Positions 2,722 to 61,069 of a DNA stretch of 64,000 bases are shown here, piece by piece. The notes below the pieces were generated by a model, which was not told the DNA's origin, searched no databases, and saw only the letters and a list, made by a program, of their open reading frames with translations. Both the position numbers and the translations under genes were made by a program. This DNA comes from Mycobacterium barrassiae (GTDB lineage: Bacteria; Actinomycetota; Actinomycetes; Mycobacteriales; Mycobacteriaceae). The stretch is from assembly GCF_025822765.1 (NCBI RefSeq), contig NZ_JACKUK010000044.1, positions 115,915 through 179,914 on the forward strand, given 5' to 3'. How positions within the stretch are numbered: position 1 is the stretch's first letter; each line of letters begins with the position of its first letter.

Positions 2722-4035
2722 CTAGAAGGCGGTCAGGTAGTGGTCGATTTCCCACGGCGTGACGGCGCTGTGGTAGGCGAAGAACTCGTCGCGCTTGATG
2801 CTCGCGAAGTAGCTGGCCACGCCCTCACCCGCGGCGTCGAGCACCCCGATGACGACGGGGTCGGCCTCGAGCTCGTCGACGGCGTGCAGCAGCGTCGGCG
2901 GTAGCGCTGAACGGCCCAGGGAGCCAACATCTCCGGGATCGCTGCTTCGCTTGATGCCGTCGATGCCGGCACCGAGTGCCGCAGCGATCGCCAGGTACGG
3001 GTTCGCCGACCCGTCGCCACCGCGCAGTTCGACGCGCTGATCGTCGGGCACCCGGATGTAGTGGGTGCGGTCGTTGCCGCCGTAGCTCGGGGTGTTGGGC
3101 GACCACGAGGCGCCCGACGCCGTGCCGGTCGCGCGGGTCCGCTTGTAGGAGTTGACCGTTGGCGCGACGACGGCCTGCAACGCGCAGGCGTGATCGAGGA
3201 TGCCGCCGATGAACGCGTACGCGGTCTCTGACAGTCCCAGGCCGCGCTCGTCGGGCACATCCGCTCCGGCGGGAAACACCGGCGACCCGCCGCTCGTCAG
3301 CGAAAGATGAAGGTGCAGACCGCTTCCCGTGCGGTCGGCGAACGGCTTGGGCATGAAGGTGGCGATCATGCCGCGCTCGGCGGCGATCATCGACAGCAGA
3401 TAGCGCAGCGTGACGACTCGGTCGGCGGTGGTCAGCGCGTCGGCGAACTGGAAGTTCTGCTCGAACTGGCCGTTGCCGTCCTCGTGGTCGTTGGCGTAGT
3501 TGGACCAGCCGAGCCGGTTCATCGCCGTCGAGACCGCGGTGAGGTGGTCGTACATCCGGGTGACGCCGCGGGCGTCGTAGCACGGCTGCGCGGCGGTGTC
3601 GGCCGCATCTGCGGTGGACAGTGTGCCGTCGGCACCGCGATGCAGCAGGAAGTACTCGACCTCCGCGCCGACCCATGGTTCGAAACCGGCATCGGATGCC
3701 TGCTCGATGATCGCCTTGAGGATGACCCGGGGTGCGTAGGGCCACGGTTCGCCGTTGACGTGTGGGTCGCAGTGCACGATCGCCAGTCCCTCCTTGAGGA
3801 ACGGGATCGGCGTGAAGGAGCCGGGGTCCGGGATGGCCATCAGGTCGGGGTCCTTGGGCTCCTGGCCCATGGCGCCGACGGCGTACCCCGCGAACCCGAC
3901 GCCCTCGGTGGCGAGCAGGTCGACGGCCTCGACCGGCACCAGCTTGGCGCACGGCTTGCCGCGCAGGTCGATGAACAGCGCGAGGATGAACTTCGTCCCG
4001 GACTCTTCGGCCAGAGCTGCGAGATCGTTGGACAT
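2722..4035 (-). CDS. glnT: Type III glutamine synthetase-like ligase (GlnT / GmaS family)
   Basis: A 437-aa protein starting MSNDLAALAEESGTK. An in-frame Met lies 11 codons upstream, but this ATG gives the family-like N-terminus. Glutamine synthetase signatures are present: WVGAEVEYFLL (metal-binding Glu), DHEDGNGQFEQNF, PKPFADRTGSGLHLHLS (ATP/metal His), NSYKR, and RVELRGGDGSANPYLAIAA near the C-terminus. Length and pattern fit the GlnT subfamily, which includes gamma-glutamylmethylamide synthetases, rather than GlnA. It sits between the ammonium transporter and the split glutamate synthase on the same strand, so its role is ammonium (or methylamine) assimilation with glutamate as co-substrate. 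The sequence alone does not settle which amine is preferred. Confidence 0.88.
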   Translation of the reverse strand: MSNDLAALAEESGTKFILALFIDLRGKPCAKLVPVEAVDLLATEGVGFAGYAVGAMGQEPKDPDLMAIPDPGSFTPIPFLKEGLAIVHCDPHVNGEPWPYAPRVILKAIIEQASDAGFEPWVGAEVEYFLLHRGADGTLSTADAADTAAQPCYDARGVTRMYDHLTAVSTAMNRLGWSNYANDHEDGNGQFEQNFQFADALTTADRVVTLRYLLSMIAAERGMIATFMPKPFADRTGSGLHLHLSLTSGGSPVFPAGADVPDERGLGLSETAYAFIGGILDHACALQAVVAPTVNSYKRTRATGTASGASWSPNTPSYGGNDRTHYIRVPDDQRVELRGGDGSANPYLAIAAALGAGIDGIKRSSDPGDVGSLGRSALPPTLLHAVDELEADPVVIGVLDAAGEGVASYFASIKRDEFFAYHSAVTPWEIDHYLTAF

Positions 4036-4122
4036 TGTGCGGAAACCTTGTCTCTTATCAGGAAACACGATACAGGTGGGCCGGCCGGCGCGGTCAGGTA
4101 GACCGCGCCGGTCGGCTACGGG

Positions 4123-5379
4123 TCAGGCAGGCTGCAGTTCGTACGACGATTCGCGATGGAACTTGGCGTCGATGCCCTCTTCTTCTTCCTCGGGCGAGAT
4201 GCGAATGCCCACCGTCTTCTTCATGACGAAGGCGATCGCGAACGCGATGGCGAACGAGTACACCATGACCGCGCCCGCGGCCACCGCCTGCTTCCACAGC
4301 TGGTCGACGCCGCCGCCGTAGAACAGACCGTTGACACCGTTCGGCATGCCCTCGCTGGCGAAGAAGCCGATCAACAGCGTGCCGATCAGGCCGCCCACCA
4401 GGTGGACGCCGACGACGTCAAGCGAGTCGTCGTAGCCGAAGCGCTCTTTGAGGCCGACGGCGTACACGCAGACCGCACCGGCGATGCCACCGACGAAGAT
4501 CGCCCCGATCGGGGTGACCGCGCCGCAGGCCGGGGTGATCGCGACCAGGCCGGTGATTGCACCCGACGCTGCGCCGACACCCGTGACGTGGCCGTCCTTG
4601 ATCTTCTCGACGGCGATCCAGGCCAAAACCGCTGCGCAGGTGGCGACGAACGTCGTGACCATGACCATGGCCGCCGAATCGCCGGCCGACAGGGCCGAGC
4701 CACCGTTGAAGGCGTACCAACCGGCCCACAGCAGACCCGCGCCCAGCAGTGTCAACGGCACGTTGTGCGGCTTGCGCTTACCGAACATCGCGGACTCGCC
4801 GAGCACGATCGCGACGGCCAGCGCCGCAGCGCCTGCGTTGATGTGCACCGCGGTGCCACCGGCGAAGTCGACGGCGCCCAGCTTGTTGGCGATCCAGCCG
4901 CCGACCGAGTTCTCGGTCACCACGCCGTCGAACGAGAACACCCAGTGCGCGACGGGGAAGTAGACCAGCACCGCCCACAGCGTGGCGAACCCCATCCAGG
5001 CGCCGAACTTCATCCGGTCGGCCACCGCACCCGAGATGAGCGCGACAGTGATGCCCGCGAACAGCGCTTGGAACACTGCGAAAAGGCTGATCGGCAATCC
5101 GAGGACGGTGGTCTGCGCTTCGAGTAGGTCGGTCAGGCCCGCGAACTCGGTCGGATTACCGACGAACCCGCCGTACGAGGTGCCGAACACCATCGAGAAC
5201 CCGAAGAGCACCCACAGCAGGCCCACGATCGCGACCGCGCCGAAGGTCATCATCATCATGTTGGTCGAGCTCTTCACGGACACCATGCCGCCGTAGAACA
5301 ACGCGAGCCCGGGAATCATCAGCGTGAGGCCGATGATGCAACACAGCATGAATGCCGTGGTGCCTGTGTCTACGTCCAT
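4123..5379 (-). CDS. amt: Ammonium transporter
   Basis: A 418-aa membrane protein starting MDVDTGTTAFML. The start is supported by an AGGAGA ribosome site a few bases upstream; 19 extra codons upstream are rejected. About eleven hydrophobic segments are visible. Amt/Rh signatures are DFAGGTAVHINAG (first pore His and the conserved Asp-Phe-x-Gly-Gly) and DVVGVHLVGGLIGTLL (second pore His). The last 30 residues form a charged cytoplasmic tail (SPEEEEEGIDAKFH), where PII proteins usually dock. No glnB/glnD follows here. Instead the gene leads into the type III glutamine synthetase and split glutamate synthase, suggesting one uptake-and-assimilation unit. Confidence 0.93.
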   Translation of the reverse strand: MDVDTGTTAFMLCCIIGLTLMIPGLALFYGGMVSVKSSTNMMMMTFGAVAIVGLLWVLFGFSMVFGTSYGGFVGNPTEFAGLTDLLEAQTTVLGLPISLFAVFQALFAGITVALISGAVADRMKFGAWMGFATLWAVLVYFPVAHWVFSFDGVVTENSVGGWIANKLGAVDFAGGTAVHINAGAAALAVAIVLGESAMFGKRKPHNVPLTLLGAGLLWAGWYAFNGGSALSAGDSAAMVMVTTFVATCAAVLAWIAVEKIKDGHVTGVGAASGAITGLVAITPACGAVTPIGAIFVGGIAGAVCVYAVGLKERFGYDDSLDVVGVHLVGGLIGTLLIGFFASEGMPNGVNGLFYGGGVDQLWKQAVAAGAVMVYSFAIAFAIAFVMKKTVGIRISPEEEEEGIDAKFHRESSYELQPA

Positions 5380-5509
5380 GTACGTCTCCTGGAGTGAGGC
5401 GGCCCGCCAGACGGGCCGTTCACTGTCAGTAACCAATGTTTCTGTTACGTAGACTCACGTGCGATGTTGCCTGCAGGTTAAAAACTGACGGGTCGCTAGA
5501 GTTTCTGCG

Positions 5510-5965
5510 ATGAGACTTGATCGACGGTGGTGGGTCGCCATCGGCGTCGTGGTCGTCGTCGCCATCGCGGTCGTGGCGTCCAATACGTTCTTCAACCGGA
5601 CGCCCGAGGAGTGCAAGCCCGTCCAGGCCTTCCTCGAATTCAACAAGTCGCAGGGTGACTTGATCGACTCGAAGGCCAGCGACAGCGACCCGGCCGTGCC
5701 GACCGTCGCCGAGGACGCCGTCTACCAACAGTGGGCCGATGGCCTGGCGCAGCGCGCCCAGGAGATCAGTGACCTCGACCTGGCGGCCACGGCGATCCAG
5801 GTCGCCCACTCGGCCTCACAGTTCGTCGCGATGCTGCCGCGGATGCGGGTCGAAGCCGAACACCACAAACAGGGCACGCCCGCACCGCCGGTCTACTTCG
5901 AGATGACGATGCTCAACAAGCGCATCACCGACGGGCTCACCGAGCTGGCTGACGCCTGCGACTGA
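5510..5965 (+). CDS. Membrane-anchored hypothetical protein
   Basis: A 151-aa protein with an N-terminal basic stretch (MRLDRRWW) followed by one hydrophobic segment at about residues 8-24, then a helical, mostly polar domain with two conserved-looking cysteines (CKPV near residue 36 and the penultimate Cys). It is probably anchored by the single segment with the rest outside the membrane. It is transcribed divergently from the ammonium transporter and lies 126 bases upstream of aspartokinase. I do not recognise a named family; it looks like a mycobacterial conserved hypothetical. Confidence 0.75.
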   Translation: MRLDRRWWVAIGVVVVVAIAVVASNTFFNRTPEECKPVQAFLEFNKSQGDLIDSKASDSDPAVPTVAEDAVYQQWADGLAQRAQEISDLDLAATAIQVAHSASQFVAMLPRMRVEAEHHKQGTPAPPVYFEMTMLNKRITDGLTELADACD

Positions 5966-6091
5966 CGGTCGCGGACGCCCGAGATTCGCCGGGACGACCG
6001 GCGGAGTAAATGGGATGCACCAAGCCCTTATCCTTGATGGGACTGTGCTGGACCGATAGGCGCGGTCCCGACCATTTGAAAGGCATCAACA

Positions 6092-8391
<2,300 letters not shown>

Positions 8392-8396
8392 CGCCC

Positions 8397-9515
8397 TTGC
8401 GCCGGTCAGCAGGTCTCCTCTCGGTTGTTCTCTGCTGCAGTCTGGTCACGGCGACAGTCGCCAACGCCGACCCGCCGGTGCCCGCGCCTGACCCGATCCT
8501 GCATCCCCTCGCCCCTGGCCAGGTTGTGCGGATCGCTCCCACAGCCGGAACAGGCACCCCTACAAGGGATTACGGCATCGGTGCGACGGACCTCTGCGAG
8601 TTCATGGAGTTCCCGAGTGGCATCCTGCAGGTCTGCGGCGACAGCTTCGCCGGCCAGGCCGTCGGCTTCGGCGGCTGGCACTCACCCATCGCGTTGCATG
8701 TCGAGACGGATTCGATCGACGACCCGAGCGGGGTGCGGTACGACGGCGTCACGGGAACAGACCGGCCACTGCTGGCGGACCCCACCGAGCCCGGTACGTC
8801 GCAGTTGCCTGCCGGCGTCGTGCAGATCAACCGTGAGAACTACCTGATGGTCACCACGGTCCGCGACCTCAATCCATTGACTTCTCGATTGGTGAAAGCC
8901 GATCCGGCGCGGGGCAATTGGCCGACGCTACCGGGTTCCGAGCGCGATGCCTCCTACGCGGACTCGCGGCAGTCGCAGATCAGCGGATATTACGACCCCA
9001 TCCCCAGGTCGGATTCCAAGACCGGCTGGGTGTACATCGTCGCCAACAACTTCGACCGCACCGGACCGATGGTGCTGTACCGCGCCCGGCCCGAGACCTT
9101 CACCGACCGCTCCAGTTGGCAGGGCTGGTCGCAGGAACTGGGCTGGGGGCATGCGCCGACGCCGTTGTGGCCGGACATGACCGGCGAGATGAGCATCCGA
9201 CAGATCGACGGTAAGACCGTGCTGTCGTACTTCAACGCCACCACCGGAAACATGGAAGTACGTGTGGCCCACGATCCGACGGGTCTGGGGACCGCACCGG
9301 TGACCACCGTCGTCGTCGCCACGGAATGGCCGGACCCCGTGGAAGACCTTGGGCCACCGGAGCACAACCGGCTGGCGCAGCCCTATGGCGGATACATCTC
9401 GCCCGGCTCCACACTCGACGAGCTACGGGTTTTCATCAGCCAGTGGAACACCGCTCCCCGCGGCGGGGCGCCGTACCGCGTCATCCAATTCGCGGTGAAC
9501 CCGTTCAAGCCCTAG
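8397..9515 (+). CDS. Secreted DUF4185-type protein
   Basis: A 372-aa protein with a TTG start five bases after asd. The N-terminus is a clear Sec signal peptide (MRRSAGLLSVVLCCSLVTAT) with a likely cleavage after VANA. The mature part has repeated short motifs of a beta-propeller-like fold (SGYYDPIPRSDSKTGWVYIV, GPMVLYRARPETFTD, YGGYISPGSTLDELRVFISQ). It matches the DUF4185 proteins that follow asd in mycobacteria (Rv3707c position). The fold suggests glycan or surface binding, but no function is established. The 3' end overlaps the convergent GAF-ANTAR gene by four bases. Confidence 0.8.
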   Translation: MRRSAGLLSVVLCCSLVTATVANADPPVPAPDPILHPLAPGQVVRIAPTAGTGTPTRDYGIGATDLCEFMEFPSGILQVCGDSFAGQAVGFGGWHSPIALHVETDSIDDPSGVRYDGVTGTDRPLLADPTEPGTSQLPAGVVQINRENYLMVTTVRDLNPLTSRLVKADPARGNWPTLPGSERDASYADSRQSQISGYYDPIPRSDSKTGWVYIVANNFDRTGPMVLYRARPETFTDRSSWQGWSQELGWGHAPTPLWPDMTGEMSIRQIDGKTVLSYFNATTGNMEVRVAHDPTGLGTAPVTTVVVATEWPDPVEDLGPPEHNRLAQPYGGYISPGSTLDELRVFISQWNTAPRGGAPYRVIQFAVNPFKP

Positions 9516-47052: not shown

Positions 47053-47098
47053 GTCGGGGTGGCGGGATTCGAACCCACGACCTCTTCGTCCCGAACCA
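47053..47098. other. Attachment site copy 1: 3' half of tRNA-Pro(CGG)
   Basis: 46 bases identical to 60920-60965. On the minus strand they read as the anticodon loop TTCGGGA (anticodon CGG), 3' anticodon stem, variable loop, T arm GTGGG-TTCGAAT-CCCGC and acceptor strand CACCCCG plus discriminator A. The 5' half of the tRNA is absent; beyond 47098 the sequence is element DNA. This is the left junction (attL) of integrated DNA. Confidence 0.85.
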
Positions 47099-47199
47099 TG
47101 CCACCAGGGCGTTTGATGGAGGCAGTTCTGTTGGCTGCGTGAGATTCCCAAGCTCAAGCGTGTTGGCGGTGTTGGCCGACGCTGATTGGTGATACTCCT

Positions 47200-49385: not shown

Positions 49386-50306
49386 TCACCCGTGGGGCGA
49401 TGACTCCAGCGCCGACGGCTCCTCGGAGTCGGGCGGTGGTGGCGTCCACTTCTTGGGTCGGATGCCGCGAATCTTCCGCGACACCAAGTACGCGCCCAAA
49501 CCGGCGACACCCGCCACCACCGCGGGCGCGGCCGCCACCGCAACGGTTCCGGCGACCATCCCGCCGCCGACGACACCGCCAATGGCGGCCAGACCGCTGG
49601 TAATGCCTGCGGCGCTCATGCCGGTGACCCCCGCCGTCGCGATCGCCGCCATTCCGCCCGCGCCGGCTGCGCCGGCGCCCGCTATGGATGCGAGGCGTCC
49701 GTCTCGACGGGCGTCGTTCTCGTCCTTGGGCAGCGTCTTGTCGCCGCGCAGGCCAACCTGCACCGCGCCCACCGATACGACCGCTGGCGCGAGCGCCAGG
49801 ACGAGCGGTCCGGCCGCGGCGCCCGCACCGACCAGTGAGCCCGCGCTTGCCAGGCCCGACATAACCCCCGCACCGCTCACTCCGGCCACGGATCCGACCG
49901 CCGACACGACCGCTGCCGTCGTGCCGAGTGAGGTCGTCGCGGCCGCCCCCGACGAGGTCAGCGAACTCACCATCCGCACCTGCTGGCTCGCGATTCGGCC
50001 CGTGCAGCACCACGTTGCGAAATGCTCGCAATTGTTGGTGACCAGGTTGTACTCCTTGCTGCCCAGCTTGGATTCCGCTCTGCCGACGACGGTGTTTGGG
50101 TCGTCCTTGTCGCTGTACTCCCGGACATGAACGATGGAGTCCAGCGCGAAATCACCCATCGAGGTGCGGGCCACTGTCGTCGATTCGTTTCTACGACGAA
50201 GAGTGTGGCAATGCCTATATAACCTCGGCATCCGAGATCGCTTACCGGCCATCCGCTTTGACCTTGCTCGACCGCCTGTCGAGCGCATGCGACCTTGTCC
50301 CAGCAA
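49386..50306 (-). CDS. LRAT-like protein with Gly/Ala-rich hydrophobic tail (N-terminus incomplete)
   Basis: A 306-aa open frame. The LRAT/NlpC-P60-like domain is visible from about residue 44: VARTSMGDFALDSIVHVREY, VGRAESKLGSKEYNLVTNNC and EHFATWCCTGR, with the NCEHF catalytic cysteine motif. The preceding part of the domain, with the catalytic His, is not in this frame, and the first 45 residues look random. After it come about 190 Gly/Ala-rich residues with three or four membrane-inserting segments, ending in a basic tail. The true start may be the Met of MGDFALDS at 50159; the gene seems 5'-truncated. Confidence 0.6.
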   Translation of the reverse strand: MLGQGRMRSTGGRARSKRMAGKRSRMPRLYRHCHTLRRRNESTTVARTSMGDFALDSIVHVREYSDKDDPNTVVGRAESKLGSKEYNLVTNNCEHFATWCCTGRIASQQVRMVSSLTSSGAAATTSLGTTAAVVSAVGSVAGVSGAGVMSGLASAGSLVGAGAAAGPLVLALAPAVVSVGAVQVGLRGDKTLPKDENDARRDGRLASIAGAGAAGAGGMAAIATAGVTGMSAAGITSGLAAIGGVVGGGMVAGTVAVAAAPAVVAGVAGLGAYLVSRKIRGIRPKKWTPPPPDSEEPSALESSPHG

Positions 50307-52256
50307 GAGTTGTCAAAGCGCCTTGCCGACAATGGGCAGCAGCGCCCGGAGTTGCCGTTACTCGACGAAGGCACCAAGGCGGGGGCATTCCTCAACGCGC
50401 TCAATGCACGCACCACTCAAGCGGAGATCGACGCGGCGACATTACTTGCCGCCGACCACGATGTCGTCCTACCCGAAAAGCTCCAGGAGGTGGCGCGGCT
50501 CCAGAGCAGCGATCCGAACAAGGAGAAGGCTCGGCTATCGCAACTGGCCGCTCAGTGGAACACCGTGCAGGCGCACGTCAATCGAGTTGCGACCATGGTC
50601 GATGCCGAGGCTCTTAGCCAGATCGCCGAGGAGAAGAACCGGGCAGGAGAACTCCGACAGGCGGCAGAGATCGCGTCGGCGAGAAACTTCGACGCCGAAC
50701 CGGTGACGGGCGTTGGATCGGCGACCTGGCGCGCATTGTGGGAGGCGGCACGCCAGTACTCGGTCAGCGAGGCGTATCACGGGCATGAGTTCCCGTTCGT
50801 TGGAGACGGCAGCGTGTGCGTTCTCTGCCAGCAGTCGCTGTCGGACGACGCTGCCGCCCGACTGACACGATTTGAAGACTTCATCGAGGACACCACCTCA
50901 CGGGATGCCGAACGGGCCGAGAGGCAACTTGCTACGCGTCGGGATCAAGCCGCAGGGCATCAGACCCAACCCGTCTCGGTGACAAGTGCTGTCACCCACC
51001 TTCAGGCTGGTGGTCAGGATGTGTCGACTGCGGAGGCGTGGATAGCTGCTGCAGCAACGGTCGCAGGGCAGATCGTCGAATGGATCGATGGGACGAGGGC
51101 AGTTCTCCCGAGTCCACCCTCCCCGGCGCCGCGCGCCGCGATTGATGAGCGCCGACAAGCGCTCCTGATCGCCAGCGAGGCAATCGATGCGACGACCTTC
51201 AATGACCACCTTCGCGACCTGAAGACCGAAGTCGCTGATCTCCAAGCGAGAGCACAGCTATACGCCGCCAAGCAGAACCTCGCCGTCGAGGTGGAGCGCT
51301 TGAAGGCGCGTGCCAAGATCGATGAGGCGAAGCGTCTCGCGGACACCACTGGGATCACTCGCAAGTCAACCGCGCTCACGACGGAGCATGTAACCAGTGT
51401 GGTCAGAGACCAGTTCACCCGCGAGACTGAGCGGCTCCACCTTCGCAAGGTCACGCTCGACCCGACACGCGGACGGCGAGAAACGACGTTGGAGCATCGC
51501 CCTAAGCTGCTGGGCGCAACGGTCGACGCAAACATCGGCCACGTCCTGAGCGAGGGAGAGCAGACCGCTCTCGGACTCGCTGGTTTCCTGACTGAAGTCG
51601 AGTTTGATGAATCTAGGTCTGGAGTGGTCCTTGACGATCCCGTCTCCTCACTCGACGCCGGTCGACGGTCTCGGGTTGCCAAACGGTTGGTCGAACTTGC
51701 GCAGGATCGCCAAGTCATCGTGTTTACGCATGAGGCGACCTTCGTCAACGCGCTCAATAGGGAAGCACGTGACCTCGGCATCGAGGTGACTGAGCGCGCG
51801 ATTCTTCGGCACGGTGAGCGCCCCGGCCTGGTCTCGGACAAGCATCCGTGGAACGTGAAAGATATTCCGTCACGGATCGATTGGCTGACGGCGGAACTGA
51901 ATCGGATACGAAACGACCGAAGCGAACTTGACTCCGACGAGTACACAAGGCGTGCCCAAGAGTGGGGTGGGAGGTTGTCGCAGGCGTGGGAGCGCGCGGT
52001 GAACCTAGACGTGGTTAACGAGCTGGTCGACCGTGGAACGAACGAAGTCAGACCGCGCATGTTCAAGATGCTGGTCGGCATAACAGAGCAGGACAACAAT
52101 GACTACCAGTCTGGCTACGCCAAGGCCTCTGAATGGGCACCGCGCCATGACCAGGCGCCCGAAACTAACTTCATTGCTCCGGAACCGGACGAGCTTGAGG
52201 CCGAGTTAGTTCGGTTCAAGGACTGGGTCGCCCGCATAAAGAGGTGCAAGAAGTGA
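50262..52256 (+). pseudogene. AAA/ABC-type ATPase lacking its N-terminal P-loop
   Basis: The frame is open from 50262; the first usable start is TTG at 50295 (653 aa). The C-terminal half has the ABC signature LSEGEQTALGLAGFLTEVEF, Walker B with D-loop GVVLDDPVSSLDAGRRSRVA, and the H-loop QVIVFTHEATFVNAL. There is a coiled-coil-like middle with a zinc-hook-like CVLCQQSL at about residue 175. This is the pattern of AAA_13/RloC-type ATPases, but the N-terminal Walker A lobe is missing. The open frame begins only 12 bases before the LRAT-like frame on the other strand. I read it as a 5'-truncated gene. Confidence 0.7.
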
Positions 52257-52331: not shown

Positions 52332-53735
52332 TTGCCTGATCCGCGCCTTGACCAGGTGCCGTGCCGCTCCTTCCAGATGGCCGCGTCCCGTATTGGACGG
52401 ACAGGGTGGGCGGGCATCTTCACAACGATCGGTGCCGATCTTCGAATTCCTACCCAACTCAGCTATACGTTTCTGGGCGTGGATGAGCCGATACCGCCCG
52501 CAAGTGCAGAAAATGTTCGTGAGACCGCATCTGCTGTAGCCCTGGAGCTCCTCGATGAGGTCGCCGTACGGCTGCTGGAGTGCCGACTGGTGTTGGAGGC
52601 CTTGCACGACGAAGTCGACCTGAACTTCGACGAGTTCATTGGGAACATAAGTGTGGTGGAGCGGTCAGCGCAGGAGGCGTTCGGCGCGGCAAGTCTGCTT
52701 AACAAGGGTGCGACACTCGACGAACGTTGGGGCTACAACCTGTCCAGGCCTAAAGCGATTTTCGCCCGCCACAATGCTGCGGCCAGGCGAGGAGTGCCGG
52801 CCCTTCTTCCCGAGCCATCGACCGTCGATGTGTTCAACGACAGCTTCCGCGACCTGACCCGGCTGGACCGCATTCAGGACATGACCGGGCCTAGACCAAT
52901 CTGCGCGACCGAAGCGCGCGACGGATCCCGTTGTGGCAGTTCGGCTATCTATTTGGGAGCCGGAGTCTTCGGACCGAACTGCTACGTGCACTCCACTCGT
53001 GCCGAACGCGACCAGTACCGGCAGCATCAGGAAAAGATCGCCGCAAAGGTCGAGGAGGAACGCTACTCGTACGCGCGGCACACGGCAGCGTCGCTGGCCA
53101 TCAGCTCCGGCGCTAACGTCAAAGCGGTGCAGACGATGCTCGGCCACGCATCTGCGGTGCTCACGTTGGACACCTACGCCGACTTGTTCCCGGACGATCT
53201 GGAGCTCGTCGCAGCGGCGCTCGATTTAGCACGGCGGGACGCTCTGGGAACAGGTCCGCAGACCTACTGCGGATTGACCTCAGCGCGTGACGCCGAAACA
53301 CGAAGCGGGAGAAGACAGATGCACACACCGGCCGACGACGATGATCAGTCGTCAGACCTAACGAAGTACGCCTTCCACATGGAGCCGCAGCTTGAACGGA
53401 GCGATGAATCATGGACTGCTTCCTATCCTGGGGCGGACTGGTCTGTGTCGGCACCCAACAAGGAATCGGCCTTGCAACGGCTCGGAGAGGAGTTCATTCG
53501 TCGGCAGAATGCTGGTGAAGATCCCCTCGCCTACGCCGACGCTGTTTACCGTCGACATTTACGCGAACCGGTCCAGGGTGTATCTGCCGTCGATAACGAG
53601 CTCTACCGTGAACTGGTGCACGCACCCGAGGCCGAACGGAAGCGCGCGATTGAAGAAGCCGAGCGGAGACGCAGGCTTGGGCAGCCCTACACCAAGAGCG
53701 ACTATCTGCGACACCGCGAGAAGCCCGAACAGTGA
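52332..53735 (+). pseudogene. Chimeric ORF: unknown N-domain, integrase C-terminus, HicB-like C-domain
   Basis: One 467-codon frame (TTG start) joins three unrelated parts. Residues about 1-240 are an unknown protein with Cys/His-rich PICATEARDGSRCGSSAIYL and NCYVHSTRAERDQYRQHQ. Residues about 244-290 are the C-terminus of a tyrosine recombinase: ARHTAASLAISSGANVKAVQ, then TMLGHASAVLTLDTYADLFP, which includes the catalytic His-x-x-His-like and Tyr region but lacks the rest. Residues 330-467 form an independent-looking gene. The normal HDLRHT context is replaced by ERYSYARHT, so the junction is a recombination scar kept in frame. Confidence 0.6.
53319..53735 (+). CDS. HicB-like hypothetical protein (C-terminal part of the chimeric frame)
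   Basis: An ATG at 53319 with GGGAGA 6 to 8 bases upstream could start a free 138-aa protein. The first 70 residues (KYAFHMEPQLERSDESWTAS, then WSVSAPNKESALQRLGEEFI) follow the HicB antitoxin-like beta-beta-beta-alpha outline. The C-terminus is charged and helical (EAERKRAIEEAERRRRLGQP). No HicA toxin is adjacent. It is the likely intact gene behind the chimeric frame. Confidence 0.5.
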   Translation: MHTPADDDDQSSDLTKYAFHMEPQLERSDESWTASYPGADWSVSAPNKESALQRLGEEFIRRQNAGEDPLAYADAVYRRHLREPVQGVSAVDNELYRELVHAPEAERKRAIEEAERRRRLGQPYTKSDYLRHREKPEQ

Positions 53736-54464: not shown

Positions 54465-55187
54465 ATGCCCAACTTGGCCACTTACGAAGCCAGCAGCATT
54501 GATTGGGATCGTCTCAACAAGTACGCACGACGGGTCGCGAACGAGACGCGGCGCCCGTCTGAATCGCCAATCAAGTACACCACGACCGAATATGTCGACG
54601 TGCCGAAGACGGTCGCGGCCCCCGGCCTACGCGGTCTGTTGGGCCGAACGGAGACAAAGGCTGCACGACAGCAGCAGCAACGGGAGGTCGTGGTGGTCGG
54701 CAAGCACTGGCTCTTGGACCGTAGGCATCACCACATCGAGCGCAACGGCCGAGGCAAGGACTACACCAATCAGGAGACGACACATGAACAGCACTATTAC
54801 GTGCTCCTGCCGGACGGCTCCCTGAAGCATGTGATTCTGTGGGAGGAAGAGTTCACGCTGACCAGCTTCGGCAGGACAACTTTCAGGTTGGAGAAAGATC
54901 ATTTGGTTTCAGATTTCGGCGACGGCGAAATCAAGGCTTTCGACTTCGAGAAGCGCTACAGCGAGTGCGGCACACACGGTCATGGGACCAAGACGTGGGG
55001 TGACCGAGAGCCGGGTAGACGACTTCTTGTTCACGTCAAGGGTGTCGGCTTGTCACGTGCGCTGAAACGGCTGGTTCCCCAGACGGAGCAGCGGGCAGCC
55101 AGTGCATCTAGTCCGCCTTCGCCGCCAAGCCGGCTTCGCGGAAGTGCCATTAACCGCACACGAGGGACGCGCCGCCCGAGTGGCTAA
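54465..55187 (+). CDS. Unknown 240-aa protein with SRLRGS C-terminal tail
   Basis: Starts MPNLATYEASSIDWDRLNKY. N-terminal helical region, then a beta-rich central domain (REVVVVGKHWLLDRRHHHIE, HYYVLLPDGSLKHVILWEEE, GRTTFRLEKDHLVSDFGDGE). After a Ser/Pro linker (SASSPPSPPS) the C-terminus reads SRLRGSAINRTRGTRRPSG. This tail resembles the C-terminus of the protein kinase encoded 3 kb downstream (SRLRGSLTRRTYRGKH). The two probably share a binding partner or modification. It may be a substrate or effector of the triad. No family recognised. Confidence 0.7.
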   Translation: MPNLATYEASSIDWDRLNKYARRVANETRRPSESPIKYTTTEYVDVPKTVAAPGLRGLLGRTETKAARQQQQREVVVVGKHWLLDRRHHHIERNGRGKDYTNQETTHEQHYYVLLPDGSLKHVILWEEEFTLTSFGRTTFRLEKDHLVSDFGDGEIKAFDFEKRYSECGTHGHGTKTWGDREPGRRLLVHVKGVGLSRALKRLVPQTEQRAASASSPPSPPSRLRGSAINRTRGTRRPSG

Positions 55188-55584: not shown

Positions 55585-56277
55585 GTGACAGCAGGACAAC
55601 AAGTTGATTATGCGGTGGATATCGTGCTTTGTATTGATCAAACCGGAAGCATGGCGCCGATAATCGAAAGCGTAAAACATCATGCATTGTCCTTTAGTGA
55701 TGAACTTCGCTCGGCCCTTGAAAAGAAAGACAGATACGTCGACGTTCTACGGGTTCGGGTCATCGGATTCCGGGACTATTACTACGACGGGCAAGAAGCA
55801 ATGGACGCGTCCGAATTCTTCACTTTGCCTGACGAAAGCACCAAGTTCGAGGCATTCGTCTCTGGACTGACTCCAAAGGGAGGGGGCGACGAGCCCGAAA
55901 GCGGTCTGGAGGCGCTGGCGCTCGCGATCAAGTCACCCTGGACAACGGCAGGCACTAAGAAACGCCAGGTCATCGTCGTTTGGACTGATGCGAGCGCTCA
56001 TCCGCTCGAGAAGTCCTCCTCCACTCCGATTGAGGCATATCCAGGAGGCATGCCGAAGGATCTGGACGAACTTACAGATTGGTGGGAGGACCCGCAAAGC
56101 GGCTCTGTCGACCCTAGGGCCAAACGGCTGATCATCTATGCGCCGGATTCGGCTGGTTGGTCGGAGATAGCGTCTAGCTGGGAAGAGACGGTCCATTTTC
56201 CCTCAACTGCGGGAGAAGGTTTACGCGACATTGAATATCAAGAGATTCTTTCGTCGATCGTCGAGAGCATCAAATAG
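55585..56277 (+). CDS. von Willebrand factor A domain protein (TerY-like), triad member 1
   Basis: A 230-aa protein from GTG at 55585, preceded by AAGAGGTGAG. It is almost entirely one vWA domain. The MIDAS metal motif is VLCIDQTGSMAPIIESVKHH (Asp18-x-Thr-x-Ser order), with later acidic/Thr positions in PKGGGDEPESGLEALALAIK and VIVVWTDASAHPLEKSS. This is the form found in TerY-like proteins. Its 3' end abuts or overlaps the PP2C gene. In published TerY-P triads such a vWA protein works with a PP2C phosphatase and a kinase, as here. Probably a cytoplasmic scaffold or phosphorylation target. Confidence 0.88.
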   Translation: MTAGQQVDYAVDIVLCIDQTGSMAPIIESVKHHALSFSDELRSALEKKDRYVDVLRVRVIGFRDYYYDGQEAMDASEFFTLPDESTKFEAFVSGLTPKGGGDEPESGLEALALAIKSPWTTAGTKKRQVIVVWTDASAHPLEKSSSTPIEAYPGGMPKDLDELTDWWEDPQSGSVDPRAKRLIIYAPDSAGWSEIASSWEETVHFPSTAGEGLRDIEYQEILSSIVESIK

Positions 56278-56284
56278 TCCGAAG

Positions 56285-57301
56285 ATGCTGCCACAGGGCC
56301 CCCTAGCGTACTTGAACATACCCAAAATTGCGGATGAGGGCGAAGACGCAGACCCCTTGTTTCACACAGTCGGGCAAACCCAATGGATCGGCGTTTTTGA
56401 CGGGCTCGGTGGCGCCGGAGCGACGGTATACAACATGCCGGACGGTCATAAGAGATCCGGCGCCTATATTGCATCGCGCGTCGCCTGCGCGGCCTGCGCT
56501 AGATGGGTAGAAGGTGAAGCTCCACAGGCTACGCCAGGGAAGCGTGCCATCGGTTTACGGGATGCACTGATGAGCCGGTTTGCCGAGGCGAAGAATGACC
56601 TTGCGGAGCCGACGTCCCGCCTAAGGGGCCGACTAATCAAGGCGCTCCCAACTACCCTGGCATTGGCGGGCATACATGACGTCCGACAAGATCATGTCGA
56701 GTGCGACGTGCTGTGGGCCGGCGACTCCCGGGTCTACTACATCACTCCAGACGAGGGGCTTGTTCAAATTTCGGTCGACCAACTGAAGGAGCCGTTGGAC
56801 GCGCAAGAAAACTTGACTGCGGACAGCCCGATGAGCAATTGCATAGCCGCTGACGAAGAGTTCTATATCGACGAGATATTCGTCACGCTCAAGAAGCCCC
56901 TTATTGTTCTTGCGGCAACGGATGGCTGTTTCGGTTACGTGCCCACCCCAACTCATTTTGAACATGTTCTGCTGTCGGCAATGGTCGGCGCTGAGACGTA
57001 TTCCGAACTTCAAACTCGACTCCGGGAGAGCATCTCATCCTACACAGCAGACGACGCGAGCATTGCGATGACGCACAGCGGTTGGGAAACCTACGGTTCC
57101 CTGAAGTCCTCCTTTAAACGCCGGATGGCGAAGGTAGAAAAGTATGTCGATGCGTTCGACAAGGCCCGATTGCAGCGCGAACAGGCGCGCGATCAGTTGA
57201 GAGAGGCCGATATCCAGTTTGCACACGTGAGAGACAAGATATGGGCTGAGTATCGTCAAGGATATGAACCCAAATTTGAGCGGACCCGAACACCGCTATG
57301 A
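56285..57301 (+). CDS. PP2C-family protein phosphatase, triad member 2
   Basis: A 338-aa protein from ATG at 56285 (MLPQGPLAYLNIPKIADEGE), 7 bases after the vWA stop; a TTG at 56231 would overlap and add 18 residues. PP2C metal motifs: WIGVFDGLGGAGATVYNMPD (Asp-Gly-x-Gly-Gly), LWAGDSRVYYITPDEG, LAATDGCFGYVPTPTHF and SYTADDASIAM (last metal Asp). It also contains SRLRGRLIKALP in the middle. The C-terminus is a coiled-coil (DKARLQREQARDQLREADIQ). Expected to dephosphorylate targets of the kinase. Its stop overlaps the kinase start (ATGA). Confidence 0.88.
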   Translation: MLPQGPLAYLNIPKIADEGEDADPLFHTVGQTQWIGVFDGLGGAGATVYNMPDGHKRSGAYIASRVACAACARWVEGEAPQATPGKRAIGLRDALMSRFAEAKNDLAEPTSRLRGRLIKALPTTLALAGIHDVRQDHVECDVLWAGDSRVYYITPDEGLVQISVDQLKEPLDAQENLTADSPMSNCIAADEEFYIDEIFVTLKKPLIVLAATDGCFGYVPTPTHFEHVLLSAMVGAETYSELQTRLRESISSYTADDASIAMTHSGWETYGSLKSSFKRRMAKVEKYVDAFDKARLQREQARDQLREADIQFAHVRDKIWAEYRQGYEPKFERTRTPL

Positions 57302-58350
57302 CGAAGATTGGCGATTATGAGCTCTTAACGGACTTCACCACCGTTGGCGGTGGTCAGTGCCGTTGGGCTTTTGCTGAGCGCGGTGGCGAAGAGTTCTTCT
57401 TAAAGGAATTCTTGAGCCCCACTTACCCGCTACCTACCTCACCTGGATCCGAAGCGACGAAACAAAAGAAGCTCAAACGGTGCCGGGCCTTTGAACACCA
57501 TCACGAATCCATCATGAGCGCACTCAAGGGATTGGCTGCGCCGGGTGGAAACTTGATCATCGCTCATAAGTTCTTTCTCCATGGAACCCACTATTACAAG
57601 GTCACTGACAGAATCAACGTGAGCTCTGTACCTGTAGATATGGTTCACACGCTCGACGAAAAGCACCGTATCCTCGTTGCAATGACGGCTGCTCATAGCG
57701 TTCAATTACTGCACCGGGTCGATCTCGTCCATGGCGATATCAAGCCACCGAATGTGTTGTTGAAAGAAACGGCAAGGAGGGCCTATGCCGCTAAGCTCAT
57801 CGATTTTGACAACGCGTATTTCAGCGGTCGCCCCGCCCCACCAGAGGATTTAGTTGGCGACCCAGCCTATTATTCTCCGGAAACGCTGCAGTATGTAGAG
57901 GGAAAGATTGACGGAAATCAACTTGGAACGAGCTCGGACATATTTGCATTGGGCATCCTATACAACGAGTACTTCATCGGAGCTAAGCCAAAATTTGGCG
58001 ATGCAAAATCGGTTGCCCTGGGCATTCTGAATGGCAGATCATATACTACGGGGCTGGAGCGATCTTGGTCGAGCGTCGACAAGCTTATCCGCCGGATGCT
58101 CAGAAAAGATCCTTCTAAGCGGCCAGATATCGCGAGGGTCATATCTGACCTTAAGGTCATAAGAGATACACCGAGGACTGCTCCCGAAGAAGGTATCCCT
58201 AGCGGCTCACGGCTTCGCGGGAAGGGGCTCCAGTCACTACCTGTTCCAGCCGATTCGGCGCCTCCCAGTAGCGCGGGACCACCCGTTTCGTCGACGGAGA
58301 GCCGGCTACGGGGCTCGCTCACGCGACGGACGTATCGAGGAAAGCACTGA
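57298..58350 (+). CDS. Serine/threonine protein kinase, triad member 3
   Basis: A 350-aa kinase. The Gly-rich loop is TTVGGGQCRWAFAERGG, catalytic Lys36 is in EFFLKEFLSP, the catalytic loop is LVHGDIKPPNVLLKE (HGD for HRD), the metal motif is KLIDFDNAYFSG (DFD for DFG), and the APE-like segment is PAYYSPETL. The C-lobe RMLRKDPSKRPDIARVI is normal. After residue 295 comes a disordered tail with SRLRG at 304-308 and SRLRGS at 335-340, ending RRTYRGKH. No TM or sensor domain, so it is soluble. It overlaps the phosphatase gene. Confidence 0.9.
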   Translation: MTKIGDYELLTDFTTVGGGQCRWAFAERGGEEFFLKEFLSPTYPLPTSPGSEATKQKKLKRCRAFEHHHESIMSALKGLAAPGGNLIIAHKFFLHGTHYYKVTDRINVSSVPVDMVHTLDEKHRILVAMTAAHSVQLLHRVDLVHGDIKPPNVLLKETARRAYAAKLIDFDNAYFSGRPAPPEDLVGDPAYYSPETLQYVEGKIDGNQLGTSSDIFALGILYNEYFIGAKPKFGDAKSVALGILNGRSYTTGLERSWSSVDKLIRRMLRKDPSKRPDIARVISDLKVIRDTPRTAPEEGIPSGSRLRGKGLQSLPVPADSAPPSSAGPPVSSTESRLRGSLTRRTYRGKH

Positions 58351-58714: not shown

Positions 58715-60088
58715 ATGCCTGTTGGCATGGTGAAGTGGTTCAACCCCGAATCGGGCTACGGCTTTATATCTCAAGAATCCGGCGGCGAGGACGTCTTCGT
58801 CCACCGCTCGGAGCTGGTCTCAGGCGCGCAGTTGACCGTTGGACAGCGAGTCGAGTTCTGTCTGACGTCGGGCGCACGCGGGCCTAGGGCCACGCACGTG
58901 ACCGTTTTGCCGCCGCTGCCCACACGCACCCCTGCCGCAGTAAAAGGGTGCGTGCGGGTGCACGAATTGGCAAAGGAACTCGGTGTCACCAGCAAGCAGG
59001 TGCTCGCCCGGCTGAACGAACAAGGCGAATTCGTTAAGTCTGCCTCCTCGACCGTCGCTGCGCCGGCGGCGGAGCGACTGCGTGTGTCATTCCGCTGTCG
59101 AGCGGTACGGCCGCAGGGCGATCGACCAACCGGCAGTAGATCAGCGCCCCCTCCTACAGCTTCGATGGAGGAGTTCGCCCTCGGCGAATGCGAAATCTGC
59201 ACGAACGAGAACGATGCGGGTGTAACACAGTGTGAATGGTGCGACACGGACATTCCTCGTCCGAAGCCGATCGAAGTGTGCGGTCCCACTGCATCATCCG
59301 CGTCCGATAATGCCGTTGAAAAGCTGGTCGAGAGAACTGCCGACGCGTTCGCGGACCGGCGCACGACAGCATCCACGTTGCCGGAGATGGCCGCATCTAT
59401 AGTCGAGCCCGAGACGGCCGCACGTACTGCCGAACCCGAGACCGCTGCACCTACAGCAGAACCCGACACCCGCGGCCCCCGCGACGATGCGGGAGATCCG
59501 CCTCATGAGCTCTGGAAGTCAAGCACTACATTCGTCGTTAACGCGACCATTCCATTGGGCCTCGGGATTGTCGGCGCCTTTCTTGCGCTAATCACCTACG
59601 GCCAGTGGGTGGACAATGCCGCCGGAATGACACTGGGGGATTACATAGCCGCACGTTGGTGGATGCCTGGATTCGTCGTGGCATTTCAGGGATTATTATG
59701 GATGTGGCGGCCTCAAGACGAGCGTGATACGTATGTCATTGTCGGCCTATCATCTTGGATTGGCGCCGTGGCGGCTGGATATGCGGGCTATGTGTTCTTA
59801 TTCTCTAGTGTGCGAGTACAGGGTAACTTGTCGCAGGAGGATTGGATTTCACCTGCGTGGGTTGGCTTCCTTTCAGAGGCTATACCGATAACGGGCATAG
59901 CCATGACAACATCTGCGTTCACGATGAAGGCATTGTGGACATGTTTTGATTACCCAAAGGGTGAATGGTGGCGCAAAACATCGTTTCTTGCATTAATTCT
60001 CGGTCCGGCATTAATCGGCTTCGGCGTCTTACAGCTTCTACCCGACCTGGATCACGTTTCGGGGATTGTCCTGACCGCAGGCGGCTGA
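58715..60088 (+). CDS. Cold-shock / IF2-N / zinc-ribbon / multi-TM fusion protein
   Basis: A 457-aa protein from ATG at 58715, 6 bases after GGAGGG; frame continues upstream but without coding character. Residues 1-64 are a cold-shock domain ([30 protein letters not shown]). Residues about 79-125 match the IF-2 N-terminal domain ([20 protein letters not shown], then [15 protein letters not shown]). A zinc ribbon has Cys159/162/173/176 ([18 protein letters not shown]). Residues 228-252 repeat EPETAA-like units. From 271 on there are four or five membrane segments. It would tether an RNA-binding head to the membrane. Same strand as the triad. Confidence 0.8.
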
Positions 60089-60270: not shown

Positions 60271-60378
60271 CTAAAGCGCTGTACCGCAGCCGATGCAGGT
60301 CTTGTTGTTCACGTTATTAGTGGCTCCGCATTTCGGGCATTCCTTAGTCTCGCGGAACGCGCGGTAACGCCTCGACAT
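60271..60378 (-). CDS. 35-aa zinc-ribbon mini-protein
   Basis: Read from the minus strand: MSRRYRAFRETKECPKCGAT, then NNVNNKTCIGCGTAL, with AAAGGAG seven bases before the ATG. The Cys-x2-Cys and Cys-x2-Cys knuckles are spaced 13 residues apart, giving a minimal zinc ribbon. It is convergent with the fusion gene. Too short for ordinary ORF calling, but the ribosome site and motif support it. Confidence 0.65.
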   Translation of the reverse strand: MSRRYRAFRETKECPKCGATNNVNNKTCIGCGTAL

Positions 60379-60919: not shown

Positions 60920-60965
60920 GTCGGGGTGGCGGGATTCGAACCCACGACCTCTTCGTCCCGAACCA
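60920..60965. other. Attachment site copy 2: 3' half of tRNA-Pro(CGG)
   Basis: Identical over 46 bases to 47053-47098. Again only the 3' half from the anticodon loop is present, so this is a junction between two elements and not the rebuilt tRNA gene. The following bases resemble those after copy 1 (CACCAGGG-x-GTTTGAT pattern). Frames translating it (AGFEPTTSSSRT) are artefacts. Confidence 0.85.
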
Positions 60966-61069
60966 CGACACCAGGGAGTTTGATTGAGTTGGCGTCGTTG
61001 GACAGCGTGAGAAACTGCAGGTCAGCAGTTGTTGGTTGGGTTGGGTGTCACGGACGGCATGCGGATGTG

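Follow-up and report, generated by a model that had tools for sequence, protein, structure and literature searches.

The 64,000-nucleotide stretch of Mycobacterium barrassiae DNA analyzed here (contig NZ_JACKUK010000044.1, positions 115,915 to 179,914; hereafter, the window) carries three adjoining genes encoding a vWA protein, a PP2C phosphatase, and a soluble Ser/Thr kinase, which an earlier note had likened to the TerY-P triad. The open reading frames (ORFs), their order, and their overlapping or nearly overlapping ends were borne out, and each of the three identities was backed by Pfam:

55585..56277 (+): vWA protein P0001, 230 amino acids, GTG start; VWA_4 (PF25106), 4e-11
56285..57301 (+): PP2C phosphatase P0006, 338 amino acids, ATG start; PP2C_2 (PF13672), 2e-6
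57298..58350 (+): Ser/Thr kinase P0002, 350 amino acids; Pkinase (PF00069), 4e-21

The PP2C gene starts 7 bp past the vWA stop codon, and the kinase start overlaps the PP2C stop by 4 bp. P0001 carries a variant metal ion-dependent adhesion site (DQTGS) and is 43–54% identical to nine members of its family; a profile search for solved structures returned none close to it (top match, integrin beta-8; E value, 0.036). Asp39, Asp213, Asp256, and Asp257 of the PP2C protein, acidic residues of the metal-site type, were unchanged across an 8-row alignment. The AlphaFold2 model of this protein had a mean predicted local distance difference test (pLDDT) score of 86.6, and its top Foldseek match was the phosphatase tPphA (2y09; E value, 8.3e-12). 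The kinase domain of P0002 was modeled mostly at pLDDT >90, and its Lys36, Asp147, Lys149, and Asp169 were unchanged across a 13-row alignment; therefore, an active kinase is expected from the sequence. The HGD and DFD motifs described for this kinase were confirmed. Of the 14 kinases compared, 13 have DFD, the exception being L016 with DYD; HGD is present in eight, and the others have Ser, Ala, Thr, or Leu in mid-motif.

A vWA gene of the same family was found at 20 loci (the window, L007, L008, L014–L018, L026, L027, L036, L037, and L047–L054). All three triad genes stood together at 15 of these (the window and 14 further loci), and the check by gene neighborhoods that the earlier note had proposed thus showed the triad recurring as a unit. 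The other hosts of the triad were Herpetosiphon, Calothrix, Clostridia including Lachnospiraceae, and genomes of the window's own phylum. The gene order was vWA–PP2C–kinase in 10 loci, PP2C–kinase–vWA in four (L014, L048, L049, and L050), and vWA–kinase–PP2C in L008 alone.

This vWA family is uncommon, with a scattered distribution. Among 301 genomes of the host's taxonomic family, a family-level vWA was found only in the host's own genome, and four other genomes gave weak partial matches of 31–35%. The family vWA was present in 3 of 396 genomes of a phylum draw and 9 of 394 genomes of a class draw (own genome counted in both), and in 3 of 66 genomes of the class of G572 (G572 counted). Plasmid records yielded 12 vWA matches, two of which were family members (Herpetosiphon, 54%; Calothrix, 47%) and the remaining 10 vWAs of 24–28% identity. 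A scan of genome contigs gave six loci, including the Herpetosiphon plasmid again. Viral contigs queried with P0001, with P0003 (the unassigned neighbor listed below), or with the P0003 alignment gave no relatives.

A membrane RNA-binding fusion and a protein of unassigned function were both present beside the triad as previously described:

54465..55187 (+): P0003, 240 amino acids, function unassigned; 45% identical to two Rhodococcus plasmid proteins
58604..60088 (+): P0004, cold-shock domain (CSD) 5e-21 and IF2_N 8e-11 (Pfam); start GTG 58604 or ATG 58715

P0004 consists of a CSD (OB)/IF2_N part, a RanBP2-type zinc-finger pattern at 59189, and then several hydrophobic segments (by eye). The earlier note treated this fusion as a mere neighbor, but a zinc-finger pattern of its kind recurs near the triad. 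Of the 15 triad loci (200 kb), 13 contain the pattern (Cx2Cx3[N/D]x5-7Cx2C), which was written after the first examples had been viewed; none of the 19 control loci (229 kb; L015, L051–L054, TerY-type loci, and other fetched vWA loci) does. In all 13 loci, it lay within approximately 2.5 kb of a triad gene, and in L007, L026, L027, and L047, the zinc-finger ORF overlapped the kinase stop. On visual inspection, eight of the 13 zinc-finger proteins (window, L007, L017, L018, L026, L047, L048, and L049) show hydrophobic membrane-type segments. The L049 protein was the only one above the Pfam Zn_ribbon_RanBP cut-off (30.1 vs. 27 bits); the L017 protein scored under it, and the model gave no match for L007, L026, L027, L047, or P0004. 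We propose that P0004 is a membrane-anchored zinc-finger partner of the triad. A 35-amino-acid ORF at 60271–60378 (−), opposite the end of the element described below, contains the zinc-finger-like CPKCGATNNVNNKTCIGC and also matches the pattern.

The earlier description of the triad omitted a peptide, SRLRG, that is common to the kinase, the PP2C protein, and P0003. The open frames of at least 60 amino acids in the window contain exactly four copies, all in these three proteins:

55128..55142 (+): SRLRG, P0003 tail (peptide search of window frames)
56615..56629 (+): SRLRG, PP2C loop before PTT, residues 111–115 (block 111–120, mean pLDDT 63)
58207..58221 (+): SRLRG motif 1, kinase tail (peptide search of window frames)
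58300..58314 (+): SRLRG motif 2, kinase tail (peptide search of window frames)

When the five island proteins were shuffled 4000 times, four copies of any 5-mer appeared in none of the shuffles and three copies in six. No two SRLRG copies have identical codons throughout; the P0003 copy and kinase copy 1 agree in three of their five codons. Across the whole genome, an over-inclusive SRLRGS codon pattern gave 99 matches versus 246 for the reversed pattern, and SRLRGS is therefore not enriched genome-wide. The kinase tail holding both motifs (residues 299–350) was predicted by AlphaFold to be disordered, with pLDDT <50 save for one residue. Because the motif is disordered, repeated, and common to unrelated proteins of one locus, it fits a docking peptide.

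With a pattern written after the tails had been viewed, a related tail motif was found among the final 60 residues in 10 of 14 kinases (the L014 kinase lies outside the 14). The same pattern was found in none of 130 other ORFs of at least 150 amino acids from the same ten loci, and when the tails of the ten motif-bearing kinases were shuffled, at most 3 of 10 matched. Tails of this type were also present in relatives identified at a later stage. The kinases of L048, L049, and L050 end in SRLRINL, SRVRINWS, and TRLRINMGTA, respectively, and the L047 tail holds the motif in two copies. The L027 tail carries PPSRLRGKLLGRTRD near its end, resembling the P0003 tail PPSRLRGSAINRTRG. P0003 itself does not match the tail pattern, which calls for Leu, Gly, Met, Val, or Ile at a position occupied by Ala in P0003. 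The loops before PTT in the PP2C proteins of relatives are only similar to that of the window (SRLRSSM, SRLTGRM, ALRSKLV, GLRSKLV, SKIKSAL, TRIKGAL, LKLRGAM, and others).

The tail motif could instead be a site phosphorylated by the kinase itself (a consensus for autophosphorylation and for substrates), or it could form an amphipathic helix that binds RNA or membranes, with no docking involved. The motif is often preceded by Ser or Thr, and second-copy tails such as RLIGKLLTRLKD appear amphipathic, as such a reading would have it; yet that Ser/Thr is absent in L047 and shifted in L036, and the PP2C copy belongs to a loop within a folded domain. We consider this explanation unlikely, and the phosphosite version of it was ranked under docking because the preceding Ser/Thr is not constant.

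TerY-P is described as a triad of adjoining vWA, PP2C, and Ser/Thr kinase genes that is able to stand alone (PMC11090510, PMC7699616), and a TerY-P island is carried by Helicobacter pylori (PMC4978471). Antiphage activity has been reported for TerY-P and TerY-P-like triads (PMC7699616, PMC11090510, PMC10889362), including protection of Pseudomonas by TerY-P, for which the phage group is given as Autographiviridae (PMC10889362). The resemblance proposed in the earlier note holds for composition: the window has the same three adjoining genes, with a soluble kinase and no TerD (PF02342 had no match in the whole genome assembly, with no search made for TerC or further ter genes). It does not extend to membership by sequence. 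With the TerY-type triad of a Rhodococcus plasmid (L012) as reference, BLASTP detected no similarity between the window vWA and one TerY-type vWA (E value, 0.87) or between the window PP2C and one TerY-type PP2C. The L012 vWA matches 2269 plasmid records at an E value of 1e-10, and two among the 60 matches listed are annotated TerY. In hhalign, the window vWA aligned with four TerY-type vWAs at 48% probability and 19% identity over 114 columns covering the vWA core only (E value, 1.9e-4), and the PP2C protein aligned with two TerY-type PP2Cs at 52% probability (E value, 1.4e-4), which points to a remote relation in both cases.

Domain models gave the same picture of distinct subfamilies. All four family vWAs tested had VWA_4 as their top Pfam model, and three TerY-type vWAs had VWA (PF00092); VWA_2 was matched by both groups alike, and the family member L017 also scored above the VWA cut-off. 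PF13672 matched the window PP2C, a distant subfamily, at 2e-6 versus 1.5e-40 and 3.3e-33 for TerY-type PP2Cs. The label "TerY-like" given earlier to the vWA is thus not borne out at the family level. PADLOC models do not tell the two kinds of triad apart, as they matched neither the vWA and PP2C of the window nor those of the L012 triad. The kinases differ at the C-terminus: that of TerY-P is C-terminally fused to a zinc ribbon (CoCoNuT type) or an OB fold (stand-alone type), whereas Pfam and the AlphaFold2 model placed neither at the C-terminus of P0002, which has its disordered motif-bearing tail there instead. The zinc-finger pattern and OB domain are located here in the separate P0004. On these comparisons of vWA, PP2C, and kinase tail, the triad is organized like TerY-P but by sequence is not a member.

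The triad lies on a putative integrated element together with the following features:

47053..47121 (+): left direct repeat, att-like, derived from a tRNA-Pro 3' end; 94% to the right copy
50295..52256 (+): AAA_13-type ATPase, PDC-S06-like candidate defense gene; PADLOC PDC-S06, 2.2e-124
52332..53735 (+): P0005 ORF, C-terminal tyrosine integrase remnant; Phage_integrase 1.3e-4, 22.2 bits, below the cut-off of 27.1
60920..60988 (+): right direct repeat, att-like, 69 bp, of which 44 bp match a tRNA-Pro 3' end

The 13.9 kb between the repeats contain the PDC-S06-like ATPase, the integrase remnant, P0003, the triad, and P0004. The ATPase covers positions 221–855 of the 858-position profile, lacking approximately the first 220, and the element looks decayed. 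The proposed link to a tRNA is upheld in part by the flanking repeats, of which the right one matches, over 44 bp, an intact tRNA-Pro(cgg) at its 3' end; this tRNA, however, is on another contig, and ARAGORN identified no tRNA within the window.

The PDC-S06-like gene on the same island speaks for an alternative, that the locus is a plain TerY-P-type stand-alone antiphage triad, with P0003 and P0004 as unrelated cargo and the motif a quirk of sequence. The shared three-part composition and the antiphage activity reported for such modules would agree with this, but the distinct vWA and PP2C subfamilies, the zinc-finger pattern near 13 of 15 triads, and the recurrence of the motif in the tails of 10 of 14 kinases do not, and we regard it as possible but rather improbable.

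P0003 has no Pfam or PHROG match, a PDB search returned nothing usable (best E value, 1.8), and no relatives were found in the 396 phylum genomes beyond its own. Both Rhodococcus homologues align with the body of P0003, but neither has its C-terminal motif-bearing tail. We propose that P0003 is a client or effector of the triad. On the Rhodococcus plasmid L012, the homologue (7992–8630, +) lies near the TerY-type triad, whose kinase frame (3617–5223, −) includes a hydrophobic segment and a stretch rich in Cys. The sister plasmid L011 keeps the homologue (7986–8624, +) with no triad in the fetched stretch; the association of P0003 with triads may therefore be due to chance, and the idea that they are transferred together was dropped.

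The surroundings of the relatives were varied. In L049, a UvrD-type helicase and a GmrSD_N protein (2945–7378, +) lie near the cassette and form a defense-type neighborhood. Large proteins that are 41% related are encoded upstream of the PP2C gene in L048 (63–2477, +) and L049 (13167–15410, −); both gave weak HEAT-repeat matches, the L048 protein also a weak STAND match, and they may represent an additional component in one sub-group. Approximately 3 kb upstream of the Herpetosiphon triad, L007 encodes a large protein that appears TPR/CHAT-like by eye (2772–5948, +), with no PADLOC match.

The three-gene theme is already known from the TerY-P island of H. pylori (PMC4978471) and from the neighborhoods of GAP1-N2 conflict systems, in which an actinobacterial kinase, often fused to a zinc ribbon or a transmembrane segment, stands beside a PP2C and a standalone vWA (PMC7159879). 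These kinase/PP2C/vWA sets accompany GTPase-centered systems. In the literature searched on vWA/PP2C/kinase triads, which left out most subscription papers, no account of a zinc-finger partner gene was found and a shared tail motif was not described; relative to that literature, these two features appear new.

A similar set of parts is found in the archaeal ArnA/ArnB/ArnC–ArnD/PP2A system, which also combines a vWA protein, a RanBP2-type zinc-finger partner, a Hanks-type kinase, and a phosphatase. The ArnA finger binds the vWA protein ArnB (PMC12852372), and the kinase ArnC and the phosphatase PP2A tune the ArnA–ArnB complex (PMC12852372, PMC6509490). The association of a RanBP2-type finger with a vWA is seen here in the gene neighborhood of 13 of 15 loci. 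In contrast to P0004, with its CSD and IF2_N and no FHA domain detected by Pfam, ArnA has an FHA domain; ArnB has a beta-sandwich and a helical domain, whereas the window vWA protein has just 230 amino acids; and the Arn phosphatase is PP2A rather than PP2C, in a system that controls motility. In the solved structure, the finger contacts the beta-sandwich and C-terminal domains of ArnB and not its vWA domain (PMC12852372), and therefore the parallel concerns the parts, not the interface.

The gene set is probably an on/off protein-phosphorylation switch. More specifically, we give about even weight to a mobile four-part phospho-switch, made up of the vWA, PP2C, kinase, and RanBP2-type zinc-finger proteins, with the motif as the docking element for kinase, phosphatase, and client; its logic would resemble that of archaeal ArnA/ArnB and of TerY-P. 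From gene content, recurrence across phyla, the motif, and its predicted disorder, all of which were seen directly, we infer motif binding, a scaffold, and a sensor and anchor. The common binder of the motif would most likely be the vWA protein and less likely the kinase; as a scaffold, the vWA protein would bind SRLRG and gather kinase, phosphatase, and the client P0003. The zinc-finger protein, often membrane-anchored, would serve as sensor and anchor, and the window's finger, fused to the CSD (OB) and membrane segments, may sense nucleic acid or damage at the membrane. A sensing finger could then alter the vWA complex, as the ArnA finger binds ArnB. At rest, the client would be held dephosphorylated by PP2C; when the balance tips, the kinase would phosphorylate the tagged P0003, and perhaps further targets, with a stress or abortive, antiphage-type response as the outcome.

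An antiphage role of the module is plausible by analogy, given the precedents of TerY-P and KKP. In KKP, inhibition of the phosphatase can set a toxic kinase loose on phages, and the kinase/phosphatase balance acts as a toxin–antitoxin and antiphage switch (PMC11341870). KKP has two kinases, whereas the triad has one kinase gene, and the abstract of PMC11341870 names neither a vWA nor a zinc finger.

Several observations weigh against the four-part docking switch. With regard to the motif, it is absent from three Lachnospiraceae kinases and the Calothrix kinase, and exact SRLRG occurs in no relative's PP2C. In a looser listing of 14 loci including the window, 13 non-kinase open stretches of at least 70 amino acids matched the tail pattern; some of these are long frames that had been dropped as overlapping from the list of ORFs of at least 150 amino acids, and those in other loci are taken as scattered chance matches. 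A tag on a protein other than the kinase or PP2C is convincing in the window only, and the tagged P0003 has no recognizable fold or catalytic domain. With regard to the zinc finger, the pattern was not found near the Calothrix triad (L008) or on the 5.4-kb contig L016, and hydrophobic segments were not seen in the zinc-finger proteins of L027, L036, L037, and L050 or in the cut one of L014. RanBP2-type zinc fingers usually contain a tryptophan; P0004 lacks this residue and has no Pfam zinc-finger match, and its assignment therefore follows from pattern and position. With regard to the gene set, neither PP2C nor kinase was found in the 778 bp up to the contig end in L015, and no PP2C match was found beside the vWA in the 15.5 kb fetched for L051–L054, where L051 also has no kinase match, the kinase matches of L052–L054 are weak (45–54 bits), and the L054 vWA is split in two pieces. 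Finally, the L047 cassette sits between mnmA-like and methionine-synthase-like genes, outside any defense island.

Such core-type flanks would be expected of a cellular stress or housekeeping signaling cassette (for cell envelope, metal, or cold stress) with no phage role, as would the cold-shock domain of P0004. Viral contigs queried with the vWA alignment gave just four weak matches, of 26–29% identity and nothing better, which also agrees with such a cassette. We nevertheless consider it improbable, as the patchy spread described above, the members on plasmids of two other phyla, and the GmrSD/UvrD neighborhood in L049 argue against it.

A broader claim can be put forward only tentatively, as doubtful but conceivable: that the four-part docking switch represents a new class of mobile prokaryotic phospho-switch, in which one docking motif is carried by kinase, phosphatase, and plug-in clients and a membrane-anchored RanBP2-type zinc-finger/OB sensor is the fourth component. 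In such a class, the unrelated P0003 would have come under control by gaining the peptide tag, and the switch would be a bacterial equivalent of the Arn switch in archaea and of the docking-motif kinase circuits known in eukaryotes.

The features described bear on substrate choice and trigger sensing in TerY-P-like triads. The docking-type motif of the kinase tail, common in the window to the phosphatase and a neighboring protein, points to a candidate client and offers a handle for mutation. The zinc finger that recurs near the triad is a candidate sensor and connects such bacterial triads with the ArnA–ArnB logic, for which a structure has been solved. A peptide shared by several proteins of one locus may show how such defense or stress switches pick their targets.

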